From Candidatus Didemnitutus sp. (GTDB lineage: Bacteria > Verrucomicrobiota > Verrucomicrobiia > Opitutales > Opitutaceae): 52,769 nt of DNA. Shown here one piece after another: positions 3-24,094 of this stretch. Positions within the stretch are counted from its first letter, which is position 1, and each line of letters begins with the position of its first letter. The notes under the pieces are model-generated. The model saw only the letters and a program-made list of their open reading frames with translations. It was not told the origin of the DNA and searched no databases. The translations under genes were made by a program, and so were the position numbers. The stretch is taken from positions 1 to 52,769 of the forward strand of contig JAMPXH010000014.1 of NCBI GenBank assembly GCA_023701285.1, written 5' to 3'.

Positions 3-734
3 GCCTCCTCCGCCGCTCCCGCCTCCACCCGCGAGCATCGCCCGCCCGGCCCGCTGGTCATCGACATCCGCGGCGTCACCAAGCTCTACAAGATGGGCGA
101 AGAGATCGTGCACGCCCTGCGCGGCGTCGCGCTCCAGGTGCACCGCAACGAATACCTCGCCATCATGGGCCCCTCCGGCTCGGGCAAGTCGACGCTCATG
201 AACATGCTCGGCTGCCTCGATACGCCCACCAGCGGCCACTACGAGTTCGCCGGCAAGGACGTCTCCAGCATGACCGACGACGAGCTCGCCGACATCCGCA
301 ACCGCGAGATCGGCTTCGTCTTCCAGACCTTCAATCTCCTGCCGCGCTCCACCTCGCTGGCCAACGTCGAGTTGCCGCTGATCTACGCCGGCATCCCGGC
401 GCACGACCGGCGCGAGAAGGCCAGCCAGGCCCTCCGCAACGTCGGGCTCGGCGACCGCATGGGGCATAAGCCCAACGAGCTCTCCGGCGGCCAGCGCCAG
501 CGCGTCGCGATCGCCCGCGCCCTCGTCAACAATCCCTCCATCATCCTCGCCGACGAGCCGACCGGCAATCTCGACTCCCGCACGGGCGAGGAGATCATGC
601 AGCTCTTCGAGGACCTTTATGCGCAGGGCAACACCATCATCGTCGTCACGCACGAGGAGGACATCGCGCGCCACGCCCGCCGCATCGTCCGCCTGCGCGA
701 CGGGTTGATCGAGAGCGACCTGAAGCAAGACTGA
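3..734 (+). CDS. MacB/LolD-type ABC transporter ATPase (5' end outside window)
   Basis: ATP-binding subunit of a MacB-like exporter; it would hydrolyse ATP at the inner membrane to drive the two FtsX-type permeases encoded downstream. The frame is open to the left edge, and residues before the first internal ATG (93) read [16 protein letters not shown], the normal start of this family's first strand, so that ATG is not the true start. Visible motifs are Walker [10 protein letters not shown] (nt 168-194), Q-loop FQTFNLLP, signature LSGGQ (nt 480-494), Walker [14 protein letters not shown] and H-loop VVTHE. The text GCLDTPTSG after Walker A is typical of MacB/YknY ATPases. A membrane-fusion partner would be expected upstream, outside the window. 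Substrate cannot be deduced. Confidence 0.93.
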
Positions 735-770
735 TCCATTTTCGATTTTGGATTCTCGACTTTCGATTTC
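735..770 (+). repeat. Left heptamer arm flanking the four-helix-bundle gene
   Basis: Immediately after the ATPase stop codon lie tandem 7-bp units: ATTTTCG, ATTTTGG, ATTCTCG, ACTTTCG and a partial ATTTC (738-770). The block is AT-rich in an otherwise GC-rich region. Its reverse complement recurs at 1118-1152, with about 32 of 35 positions matching, so the two blocks form inverted arms around one small gene. Confidence 0.85.
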
Positions 771-1151
771 ATGACCGAACGCGAACTCAAGGATCGGACG
801 AAGGCTTTTGCCCTGCGCGTGTTGAAGCTCATCGACACGTTGCCGGATACCCGCACCGGGCGGGTTCTGGCGACGCAGTTGGGGCGTTCGGGCACATCGG
901 TCGGCGCCAATTACCGCGCGGCCTGCCGCTCCCGCTCCACGGCGGAGATGATCTCGAAGCTCGCCATCGTGGAGGAGGAAGCGGATGAATCCGGATTCTG
1001 GCTGGAGTTGATTGCCGGGCACGAGCTTCTGCCCCGTAAGAAGCTGACGGCGCTCCTGCAGGAGGCCGATGAACTCACCGCCATCATGGTGGCCTCGCGG
1101 CGCACGCTGCAGTCCGCGAATCGAAAATCGAGAATCCAAAATCCAAAATGA
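771..1151 (+). CDS. Four-helix-bundle protein (S23 / IVP family)
   Basis: 126-residue protein of the S23/intervening-sequence-protein family (TIGR02436-like four-helix bundle). The family hallmark is clear: QLGRSGTSVGANYRAACR around residues 37-54, then KLAIVEEEADESGFWLEL. Relatives occur inside 23S rRNA intervening sequences, beside diversity-generating retroelements, and as solitary scattered genes; molecular function is mostly unknown, with nucleic-acid or protein binding suspected. Here it separates an ABC ATPase from its permease, which are usually adjacent. Its last ten residues (NRKSRIQNPK) are translated from the right heptamer arm, and its stop overlaps the permease start (ATGA at 1148-1151). 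The context suggests an inserted cassette rather than a transporter subunit. Confidence 0.9.
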   Translation: MTERELKDRTKAFALRVLKLIDTLPDTRTGRVLATQLGRSGTSVGANYRAACRSRSTAEMISKLAIVEEEADESGFWLELIAGHELLPRKKLTALLQEADELTAIMVASRRTLQSANRKSRIQNPK

Positions 1152-1152
1152 A
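1118..1152 (-). repeat. Right heptamer arm, inverted copy of 735-770
   Basis: Read on the minus strand this block gives ATTTTGG, ATTTTGG, ATTCTCG, ATTTTCG, ATTC in 7-bp steps, mirroring the left arm. It encodes the C-terminus of the four-helix-bundle protein and contains the start codon (1148) of the next permease, so it is simultaneously repeat, coding sequence and translation-initiation region. Confidence 0.85.
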
Positions 1153-2398
1153 ACGGCTTCTCTACGAGTTCTCCGAGTCCGTGCGCATCGCGGCGACGCA
1201 GATCCGCGCGAACAAGATGCGCTCCGTCCTCACGGCCCTCGGCGTCATCATCGGCGTCGTCGCCGTCACGCTCATGGGCACCGCCATCCGCGGCATCGAC
1301 AAGGGCTTCGCCAACAGCCTCGCCCTCCTCGGCGAGGACGTGCTCTACGTGCAGAAATGGCCCTGGGGCCCCGTCGAGGATTGGTGGAACTACGTCAACC
1401 GGCCGAACCTCAAGCCCGAGCACGCCGACAAGCTCAACCGCGTCATCGAGAGCACCAACAATTCGCTCCTCGCCTTCGCCGTGCCGGTGGTCGGCCGCGG
1501 CTCCGTCATCAAGGTCGGCGACGCCAAGGTCAGCGGCGTCTTCACCATCGGCACCACTGCGCCCTATGCGCAGATGACCGGCACCGAATACAAGGAAGGC
1601 CGCCTCTTCAACGAGACCGAGGCCGAGTCCGGCGCGCAGGTCTGCGTGCTCGGTTACGACGTGGCCGAGGCGCTGCTGCCCAACCGCGACCCGATCGGTG
1701 AGACCGTGCTCATCAGCGGGCAGCCGTTCACCGTCGTGGGTGTCTTCGCCAAGCAGGGCGAATTCCTCGGGTTGTTCAGCTTCGACAATCAGGCCGTCAT
1801 CCCCCTGAAGGCCTTCCAGAAATATTTCTCGACCCGCCGCGGCGCCGAGATCCGCGTGAAGGTGCTCGACCAGACCAAGCTCGCCGCCGCCAAGGACGAG
1901 CTGACGGGTGCGATGCGCCGCGTGCGCGCCCAGCTCCCGGGCGAGCGGGATAATTTCAGCATCAACGAGCAGGAGGCGTTCAAGGCGCAGCTCGATCCGG
2001 TGAAGGGCTCGATCGCCACCATCGGCTTCGTCATCACCGGTCTCGCGCTTTTCGTCGGCGCCATCGGCATCATGAACATCACCTTCGTCTCCGTGAAGGA
2101 GCGCACGAAGGAGATCGGCACGCGCAAGGCCCTCGGGGCGCGCCGCCGGTCGATCCTGCTGCAGTTCCTCATCGAGGCCGTCTCCATCTCGCTCATCGGC
2201 GGATTGGTCGGCCTCGCGCTCACCATGGTGCTGGTGCAGGTGGCGGCCCAGGCCTTCCCCAGTTTCCCTGTCAGCATCTCCTTCGGCATCGTGGCGCTGG
2301 CGGTCGGGACTTCGGTCTTCGCCGGCGTCGCGGCCGGCTTCGTCCCCGCCCTCGGCGCGTCGCGCCTCGATCCGGTCGTGGCCCTGCGCTACGAGTGA
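1148..2398 (+). CDS. MacB-like ABC transporter permease (FtsX domain), first copy
   Basis: 416-residue inner-membrane permease with MacB topology: one N-terminal transmembrane segment (about 22-45), a large periplasmic domain (about 46-285), then three C-terminal segments. The FtsX-domain signature is seen as IGIMNITFVSVKERTKEIGTR and RKALGARRRSILLQFL, and the protein ends SRLDPVVALRYE as is usual in this family. It should pair with the upstream ATPase in a mechanotransmitting exporter. Its ATG overlaps the stop of the four-helix-bundle gene by four bases, so translation may be coupled to that gene rather than directly to the ATPase. A second permease follows after 7 bp. Confidence 0.93.
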   Translation: MKRLLYEFSESVRIAATQIRANKMRSVLTALGVIIGVVAVTLMGTAIRGIDKGFANSLALLGEDVLYVQKWPWGPVEDWWNYVNRPNLKPEHADKLNRVIESTNNSLLAFAVPVVGRGSVIKVGDAKVSGVFTIGTTAPYAQMTGTEYKEGRLFNETEAESGAQVCVLGYDVAEALLPNRDPIGETVLISGQPFTVVGVFAKQGEFLGLFSFDNQAVIPLKAFQKYFSTRRGAEIRVKVLDQTKLAAAKDELTGAMRRVRAQLPGERDNFSINEQEAFKAQLDPVKGSIATIGFVITGLALFVGAIGIMNITFVSVKERTKEIGTRKALGARRRSILLQFLIEAVSISLIGGLVGLALTMVLVQVAAQAFPSFPVSISFGIVALAVGTSVFAGVAAGFVPALGASRLDPVVALRYE

Positions 2399-2405
2399 TC
2401 CGCCC

Positions 2406-3653
2406 ATGAAAATCACCGAAGTCTTCCGCATGGCCGTCGGCTCCCTCGGGGTGAACAAGCTCCGCTCGGGCCTCACGATGTTCGGCATCACCATCGGCGT
2501 GTTCACTGTCATCGGGGTCATGACCGCCGTGACCGCGCTGCGCAGCTCCATCGAGACCGGCCTGAGCTTCCTCGGCACGAACATGTTCCAGTTCGCCAAA
2601 TTCCCCGTCTCGGGTGGCGGCGGCGATGAGGGGCCCCGCCGGCGCCGCCTCGAGTTGCGGCGCGACATCACGCTCGACCAGGCGATGCGCTATCAGCAGC
2701 TCATGGCCGAGACCACGAACGTCGTCTGCCTGAAAGTCTTCAACAACGGCGCGCCCGTGCACGCCACCTACGGCGGCCGCAAGACGCAACCCGGCGTCAC
2801 TTTCGGCGGCAGCAACGAGCACTTCCTCGCCGCCAACCAGTATGCCATCGACTCCGGGCGCAACTTCACCGCCGACGACATCGAATACGGCCGCCCCGTC
2901 ATCATCATCGGCCAGGAGCTCGTCACGCGCCTTTTCCCTTCGGAGAACCCGCTCGGCAAGATCATCAAGATGAAGGACCGCACCTACACGGTCATCGGCA
3001 CCTTCGCCTCGAAGGGCAACGCCTTCGGCGGCAACAGCGACGCCATCGGCATGATCCCGATCACGCGTTTCATCACGGATTTCGGCGCCGAGCGCCTGAC
3101 GATCAACATCGCCACCCAGGCGCCCACGCAGACGCTCTACAACGAGACGCTCGATAAGGCCGTCACCGCCATGCGCATCGCCCGCGGCCTGAAGGCCGAG
3201 CAGGAAAACGATTTCGAGATCTACTCCAACGACTCGCTCCTCTCCGCCTTCGCCAAGGTGGCCGACGTGATCGCCGCCGGCTCGTTCCTCATCAGCGGCA
3301 TCGCGCTCCTCGCCGCCGGCGTGGGCATCATGAACATCATGCTCGTCAGCGTCACGGAGCGCACCAAGGAGATCGGCATCCGCAAATCCCTCGGCGCCCG
3401 GCGCAAGTCGATCCTCACCCAGTTCCTGATCGAGGCCGTCACCATCTCGCTCATGGGCGGCGTGGCCGGCATCCTGCTCGGCATCGGAGTCGGCAACGGC
3501 CTCGCGATGCTGCTCAAGGCGCAGGCCGTGATCCCGTGGGATTGGGCCGGCATCGGCCTCGTCGTCTGCTCGGGCATCGGCATCGGATTCGGTTTCTATC
3601 CGGCCTGGAAGGCCGCGCGCCTCGACCCGATCGAGGCCCTGCGCTTCGAGTGA
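2406..3653 (+). CDS. MacB-like ABC transporter permease (FtsX domain), second copy
   Basis: 415-residue paralogue of the preceding permease with the same plan: N-terminal membrane segment, periplasmic domain, three C-terminal segments. The FtsX motif reads VGIMNIMLVSVTERTKEIG with RKSLGARRKSILTQFL, and the C-terminus is AARLDPIEALRFE. A glycine- and arginine-rich stretch (SGGGGDEGPRRRRLE, about 73-87) at the start of the periplasmic part is absent from the first copy. Two different permeases with one ATPase suggests a heterodimeric exporter. It begins 7 bp after the first permease, so both are probably on one transcript. Cargo is unknown. Confidence 0.92.
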   Translation: MKITEVFRMAVGSLGVNKLRSGLTMFGITIGVFTVIGVMTAVTALRSSIETGLSFLGTNMFQFAKFPVSGGGGDEGPRRRRLELRRDITLDQAMRYQQLMAETTNVVCLKVFNNGAPVHATYGGRKTQPGVTFGGSNEHFLAANQYAIDSGRNFTADDIEYGRPVIIIGQELVTRLFPSENPLGKIIKMKDRTYTVIGTFASKGNAFGGNSDAIGMIPITRFITDFGAERLTINIATQAPTQTLYNETLDKAVTAMRIARGLKAEQENDFEIYSNDSLLSAFAKVADVIAAGSFLISGIALLAAGVGIMNIMLVSVTERTKEIGIRKSLGARRKSILTQFLIEAVTISLMGGVAGILLGIGVGNGLAMLLKAQAVIPWDWAGIGLVVCSGIGIGFGFYPAWKAARLDPIEALRFE

Positions 3654-16401: not shown

Positions 16402-16429
16402 CGTAAGCGGTGAGCAGTGAGCGGTGAGC
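16402..16429 (-). repeat. Heptamer tandem repeat between sufU and sufS
   Basis: Four 7-bp units on the minus strand, GCTCACC, GCTCACT, GCTCACC and degenerate GCTTACG, fill most of the 39-bp gap. Unit length equals that of the arms around the four-helix-bundle gene, but the unit sequence differs. Confidence 0.8.

Positions 16430-22744: not shown

Positions 22745-24094
<1,350 letters not shown>

Follow-up and report, generated by a model that had tools for sequence, protein, structure and literature searches.

An S23p gene between mirrored heptamer arms in an Opitutaceae transporter operon: probably an IVS-like mobile element outside rRNA

Reading frames of the S23p family are known from intervening sequences (IVS) of 23S rRNA genes in Coxiella and Leptospira. 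The Coxiella IVS closes in a 28-bp terminal stem, such IVS have been proposed to be mobile, their ORF serving as mobility factor, and a Xanthomonas protein of the S23p family is reported to be a pentamer (PMC4990558). S23p has lacked a settled function ever since the discovery of the rRNA IVS, and many of its genes are annotated merely as "four helix bundle protein". A separate literature deals with heptameric repeats: GGGAATC and GGGGATT in Xanthomonas and Nostoc, with 70-75 convergent inverted heptamer pairs per Xanthomonas genome (PMC4692102), and TAACTGA in Beggiatoaceae (PMC4679880). Our literature search, with preprints and most subscription journals outside its reach, turned up no paper that joins S23p and heptamer repeats. 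Since the two are known, each on its own, and no joining paper was found, we call the unit described here an IVS-like element outside rRNA; that it constitutes a class of its own is also a possibility. Either way, the cassettes connect the two literatures.

The window locus and its S23 protein

The window, by which we mean the whole stretch of 52,769 nucleotides that was analysed, starts at a contig edge of the draft source genome (G000; 4.02 Mb, 95% complete). The operon at its beginning has the following parts.

3..734, + strand: ABC ATPase of the MacB/LolD type (PF00005, E 2e-34), truncated by the start of the contig
738..770, + strand: left arm, ~4.7 heptamer units (ATTTTCG ATTTTGG ATTCTCG ACTTTCG ATTTC), from the inverted match and a period-7 run
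771..1151, + strand: S23p/TIGR02436 four-helix-bundle gene, 126 amino acids (TIGR02436, E 2.3e-22; PF05635, E 1.3e-13)
1117..1150, - strand: right arm, an inverted copy of the left arm that reaches into the permease start codon, from the inverted match and from RNA-fold pairing with the left arm
1148..1151, + strand: ATGA overlap of S23 stop and permease start, from the sequence
1148..2398, + strand: MacB-like permease 1 (PF12704, PF02687)
2406..3653, + strand: permease 2 of the host operon; the permease 1/permease 2 junction is J2, where S23 cassettes lie in other genomes

An earlier note, made from these letters alone, had described an S23-type gene of 126 residues that splits an ABC ATPase from its permease, and the TIGR02436, PF05635, PF00005 and PF12704/PF02687 matches bear this out, the two S23 profiles scoring well above their cut-offs (79.3 bits against 24 for TIGR02436, 51.5 against 33.8 for PF05635). 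The ATPase stop codon ends at 734, the left arm starts 3 nt downstream, and the whole unit, 738-1150, measures ~410 nt. The arms, which had been put at about 32 matches in 35 positions, are real inverted copies with a period of 7, but their match is slightly lower, at 29 of 33 positions (738-770 against 1117-1149). In the computed RNA fold they pair end to end around the S23 gene (-193.9 kcal/mol, z = -5.2, with 0 of 100 shuffles as stable). The absence of any Rfam match within 600-1300 led us to reject a known structured RNA, and the absence of a PADLOC match to reject a defence-gene reading.

The sequence also confirms that the right arm encodes the C-terminus of the S23 protein, its last ~10 residues (NRKSRIQNPK), and that it adjoins the permease start at the ATGA overlap. 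The repeat-encoded tail is a by-product of a 7-nt repeat that is open in all frames. A cassette that entered the gap between the stop codon of one operon gene and the start codon of the next would do the operon no harm, because the heptamer repeat is stop-free in every frame and because the stop codon of S23 shares bases with the start codon that follows. A second heptamer array lies elsewhere in the window, at 16403-16429: four units of the GTGAGCG type on the minus strand, directly before a SufS-like start codon, occupying the ~40-nt gap between SufU-like and SufS-like genes, with no inverted partner seen.

The AlphaFold2 monomer model of the protein (pLDDT 95.6, with confidence dropping over the arm-encoded tail) is a four-helix bundle, and its best match in the PDB is S23p 2RLD (Z 17.8, rmsd 1.6 over 111 residues), followed by S23p 2GSC (Z 15.6); both of these structures have five chains. 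Purifying selection acts on S23 among relatives (19 unsaturated pairs give a dN/dS of ~0.11), and residues P25, Q36, R39, S43, N47 and E73 are near-invariant. Next among the structural matches comes Avd of the ribonucleoproteins of diversity-generating retroelements, or DGRs (4DWL, 8UB7/8UB8), with a Z of about 13 that is borderline for helical bundles. It is this fold match that would favour a retroelement, an Avd-like protein served by a reverse transcriptase in trans. Against it, no RVT_1 match was found in the S23-bearing genomes G000 (95% complete), G004, G013, G015 (closed), G017, G021 and others, so that a resident reverse transcriptase is rejected as a requirement for many genomes, and we hold a retroelement of this kind to be extremely improbable.

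Mirrored arms across the S23 family

G000 has just three S23 genes, and all three lie between inverted heptamer arms, each built of a different heptamer: ATTTTSG at the window, GGCGATG on contig C207 and GGACGGA on contig C101. The notion of the arm as one fixed motif does not survive this comparison. Anatomy of the same sort recurs far beyond G000. In the set of S23 genes that was gathered from relatives by profile, and thus not selected by arms, 86 of 89 have arms by at least one test. At the first 114 S23 loci the score for left/right inverted matching has a median of 23, where shuffled flanks give 8.5 and never more than 18, and 97 of the 114 exceed the 99% level of the shuffles. Over many phyla (the named-genome set, which took in Verrucomicrobia, Planctomycetes, Acidobacteria, Deltaproteobacteria, Chloroflexi, Cyanobacteria, Ignavibacteria and others, has a slight bias because the arm-encoded tail served as one of the search peptides), 147 of 178 S23 genes (83%) stand above the 99th percentile of control genes; the control consists of 112 other genes, with a median inverted score of 9 and a 99th percentile of 15.8.

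The periodicity is equally distinct. At lag 7 the left flanks score 16.1 on average and at lag 14 they score 13.2, whereas lags that are not multiples of 7 give 3.4-4.7, and the median period-7 scores are 14-15 against 4 for the control genes, medians and shuffles being used here because a few long arrays distort the control 99th percentile. Chance repeats are ruled out by the shuffled flanks, the lag scores and the control genes together. Arm length falls in a narrow range, with a median of 32 nt, or 4-5 units. As far as these sequences go, inverted heptamer arms appear to be the family-wide rule for S23 genes. Two loci (L059 in G076, L060 in G067) have arms apparently made of 8-nt units, AAAGGGAC and AAAGGCAC. 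On Planktothrix plasmids (L339, L340) an S23 cassette sits between DISARM drmD and a restriction-modification enzyme gene, with arrays of the ATTTACG and ATCCCCA types. Database records of S23 include 26 on plasmids, mostly cyanobacterial, and two weak ones on phages, and a phage origin has been set aside on that count.

From element to element the heptamers vary widely; within each element, left and right match. The mirroring is in register: with windows picked by periodicity alone, the true order of the units beats permuted order in 73 elements and does worse in 29 (p 1.6e-5). The distance between left-arm heptamers is, moreover, correlated with the distance between the S23 genes (r 0.61, the maximum of 999 permutations being 0.22). 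There is no fixed recognition motif in the arms, whose sequence varies but tracks the S23 clade. Mirroring that stays in register and heptamer types that follow the S23 clade argue that arms and gene evolve as a unit in which the pairing of the arms is maintained. The proposal that arms and gene travel together has held up too, since the arms recur elsewhere in G000 and around other S23 genes. Mirrored heptamer arms around S23 genes of many phyla give the family a common anatomy, and with it an experimental handle, the binding of an S23 protein to its own heptamers.

Occupied sites, empty sites and gene-less arrays

We designate the ATPase/permease 1 junction J1 and the position after permease 2 J3; the genomes compared are mostly draft assemblies. 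An empty ATPase-permease junction, for which the earlier note had advised looking, exists in the closest relative, G012 (86% complete; permease 95% identical to that of G000), where J1 is only TGA-CCG-ATG, with a 3-nt gap, and in several other sister genomes. By itself, the difference between G000 and G012 may denote gain or loss alike. A second pair of sisters, one occupied and one empty, is G008/G002 (permeases 93% identical); G006 differs in S23 occupancy from G007 and G001, with permeases 88-89% identical, and so do the members of the pairs G049/G051 and G039/G058. The G006 cassette occupies the place of a homologous ~95-nt spacer that is kept in G001, G007 and G004. At some junctions decayed cassettes and empty arm pairs have been left behind (L028, L029, L032, L034). 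Across the family the presence of S23 is patchy, with cassettes at J1, J2 or J3, and S23 distances are unrelated to those of the permease (Mantel r 0.04, with 341 of 999 permutations as high, for 18 loci). Read together, these junctions indicate that the window cassette is an insertion. Neither of the outcomes that the earlier note had named as fatal to its idea was seen: the gene and arms are not a fixture of this junction in all relatives, diverging in step with the transporter, and the arms do recur, in G000 and around other S23 genes.

The window-type S23 clade is tied to one transporter (MacB) operon across much of the Opitutaceae, at three different junctions. This attachment speaks for a hotspot or for recurrent re-insertion more than for random jumping. 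Residence in a single operon is unusual for a freely moving element. It would suit a stable regulatory module, in which S23 functions in the transporter operon, the arms are a controlling RNA hairpin and the patchiness reflects repeated loss; the strong terminal stem into which the arms fold and the purifying selection on S23 fit such a module as well. However, most other S23 genes of the same design have unrelated neighbours, the cassette shifts between J1, J2 and J3, its history is uncorrelated with that of the permease, and arms also occur without the gene. We consider this account very unlikely.

A cleaner case of an empty site is provided by plasmids of Nostoc. Plasmid pC052_A of Nostoc sp. 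C052 has an S23 cassette whose inverted ends, built of CGTAATT heptamers, match perfectly over 39 nt, and the same segment is found without the cassette in pC052_D, pC052_B, p057_H and pNPM1. The cassette replaces ~190 bp, which we read as part of an HNH-type nuclease gene; because the four other plasmids retain this stretch, at 89-93% identity, the state of pC052_A is the derived one. Target site duplications were found neither at this empty/full pair nor at the copies in G014 that are described below. The right flank of pC052_A is 99.8% identical to that of pC052_D and the left flank 90.6%, and this inequality makes later recombination between plasmids possible.

Flanks of different age on the two sides of an element are also what one would expect if homologous recombination were the only process at work, the cassettes riding on transferred DNA that enters via conserved flanking genes and the heptamer arrays being unstable, recombination-attracting repeats. 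That the same junctions are struck repeatedly, and that a resident spacer is replaced instead of interrupted, is in keeping with this. Recombination alone would, however, leave the use of three different junctions unexplained; the dispersed miniature copies share no flanks, some lie in frame in dnaE and gcvP, and the permease trees should follow S23 more than is observed. We judge it unlikely to be the whole story.

Searching with the window arm gives 22 hits in G000, one in G012 and 0 in four other relatives, with 0 for a reversed control. The G000 copies comprise gene-less intergenic pairs, single arrays just before start codons and in-frame arrays inside genes. One of the last (L046, on C139) adds the insert FTPVPAQQSKIENPKSKIAADGGSIRFGL to DnaE; G012 and G008 lack this insert (FTPVG..IRFGL), and G004 has a different inverted heptamer pair, also in frame, in the same DnaE loop (L194, on C35). 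In two other G000 loci (L042 on C35, L047 on C140) QSKIENPKSKI peptides are encoded by in-frame arrays in glycine dehydrogenase (gcvP) and in a dihydrolipoamide dehydrogenase-like gene. Many ~111-nt miniature elements with arms of the window type are present in G014, and many with GTAGCGA arms in G032; G012, which has no window-type S23, shares miniature elements at three loci only as decayed copies. Inside the heptamer arms of the G014 elements (L199-L218) are two 14-nt GC-rich hairpins with GGNA loops, in both orientations. Near L073 (G014:C1:23600-31700) GGAGTCA arrays recur every ~2.0 kb, at 23603, 25629, 27605, 29645 and 31671, a spacing that would fit tandem amplification of a segment carrying an S23 cassette.

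Like the window cassette, the miniature elements have terminal inverted repeats and no transposase gene, as MITEs do, and they are clearly non-autonomous forms. For them, and for mobility as such, the term "non-autonomous mobile cassette" of the earlier note was apt; it was less so for the gene-bearing form, whose protein is under purifying selection.

Arrays and S23 genes do not always keep company. The closed genome G016 has 35 GTAGCGA and 7 ATTTTSG array hits, and no S23 gene above threshold was found in it. GGAGTCA arrays follow the S23 genes that have arms of this type (p 0.002, with the genes' own arms included), whereas GTAGCGA arrays do not follow theirs (p 0.10), so that there is only partial support for the idea that an S23 protein moves no arrays but those built of its own heptamer. 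Both the G016 arrays and the GTAGCGA result appear to run counter to any simple scheme in which S23 moves its own arrays, and because of them the part of S23 in movement is something that we infer. The same observations, and the commonness of gene-less pairs, lend some credit to a MITE-like cargo, in which an unrelated host enzyme (a Y1/HUH or other transposase) moves paired heptamer arrays and S23 is a passenger or later accessory; Y1 transposases are present in 34 of 37 genomes. They were not found, on the other hand, in G029 and G035, which have S23 cassettes, and Y1 transposase as the sole mover is disfavoured on that ground. The clean Nostoc insertion without target duplication, arms that follow the S23 clade in place of any fixed motif, and the purifying selection on S23 also weigh against a cargo moved by others, which we regard as rather unlikely.

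A model, and its kinship with known elements

Our best explanation, which we take to be probable, is that the window holds a mobile element of ~410 nt, an S23p gene within heptamer-built terminal inverted repeats, akin to the S23p IVS of rRNA and located outside rRNA. Because its arms mirror each other, the transcript, or one strand of the DNA, could fold back on itself as a single long hairpin. S23, which has the fold of pentameric S23p and of Avd and is probably an RNA-binding protein, would bind heptamer arrays as a pentamer and help to spread or maintain the element and its gene-less derivatives, and a hairpin intermediate would preserve the mirror relation of the arms as their sequences drift. 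The protein most likely forms pentamers, as its relatives do, binds heptamers and takes part in movement; its presumed five subunits would correspond to the 4-5 heptamers of an arm, a suggestive agreement.

A stronger proposition, which we advance tentatively and as a possibility, is that S23p/TIGR02436 cassettes make up a distinct and very widespread class of minimal mobile element that does without both transposase and reverse transcriptase: the pentamer ring would read about five heptamers, one per subunit, protein and heptamer would diversify as lock and key, and spread through a hairpin would copy arm onto arm. The occurrence of S23 cassettes across many phyla suggests a minimal type of mobile element that has so far escaped notice, and the mobile-cassette idea of the earlier note may fairly be called largely right but understated. 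Elements of such a class would move without any known recombination enzyme and would place extra peptides in essential proteins, DnaE among them.

Among described systems the rRNA IVS stands closest. Cassette and IVS have in common the S23p family, their size (~410 and 428 nt, respectively), terminal inverted repeats that form a stem with the S23p ORF inside, and a sporadic distribution. They differ in location, the cassettes being found in protein-coding operons and intergenic gaps (the window cassette lies between two ABC transporter genes, not in an rRNA gene), and in that cassette ends are tandem heptamers with letters varying by element, the rRNA IVS ends being compared here by description only. 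With the heptamers of Xanthomonas, Nostoc and Beggiatoaceae the arms share tandem 7-nt units and a mostly intergenic position; the papers concerned do not mention S23, describe repeats that are not generally near mobile elements, and have one fixed heptamer per genome (PMC4692102, PMC4679880).

REP/REPIN-RAYT systems resemble the cassettes in their short, intergenic repeats in inverted pairs, in the lack of target site duplication and in a gene flanked by the same repeats (PMC3116915, PMC3733652). In a RAYT locus the flanked gene is of the Y1 type; here it is S23p, a helical bundle without a Y1 domain, and the repeats are heptamers in tandem where REP elements have tagged palindromes. Prokaryotic MITEs and the Rickettsia palindromic elements are likewise short inverted-repeat elements with gene-less derivatives and in-frame copies within genes (PMC10969869); unlike them, the cassettes have no target site duplication or known transposase, and they keep their mirroring while the arm sequence changes. 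The likeness to the Avd of DGRs (4DWL, 8UB7/8UB8), finally, is one of protein fold, for the cassette loci have no reverse transcriptase, template or variable repeat.
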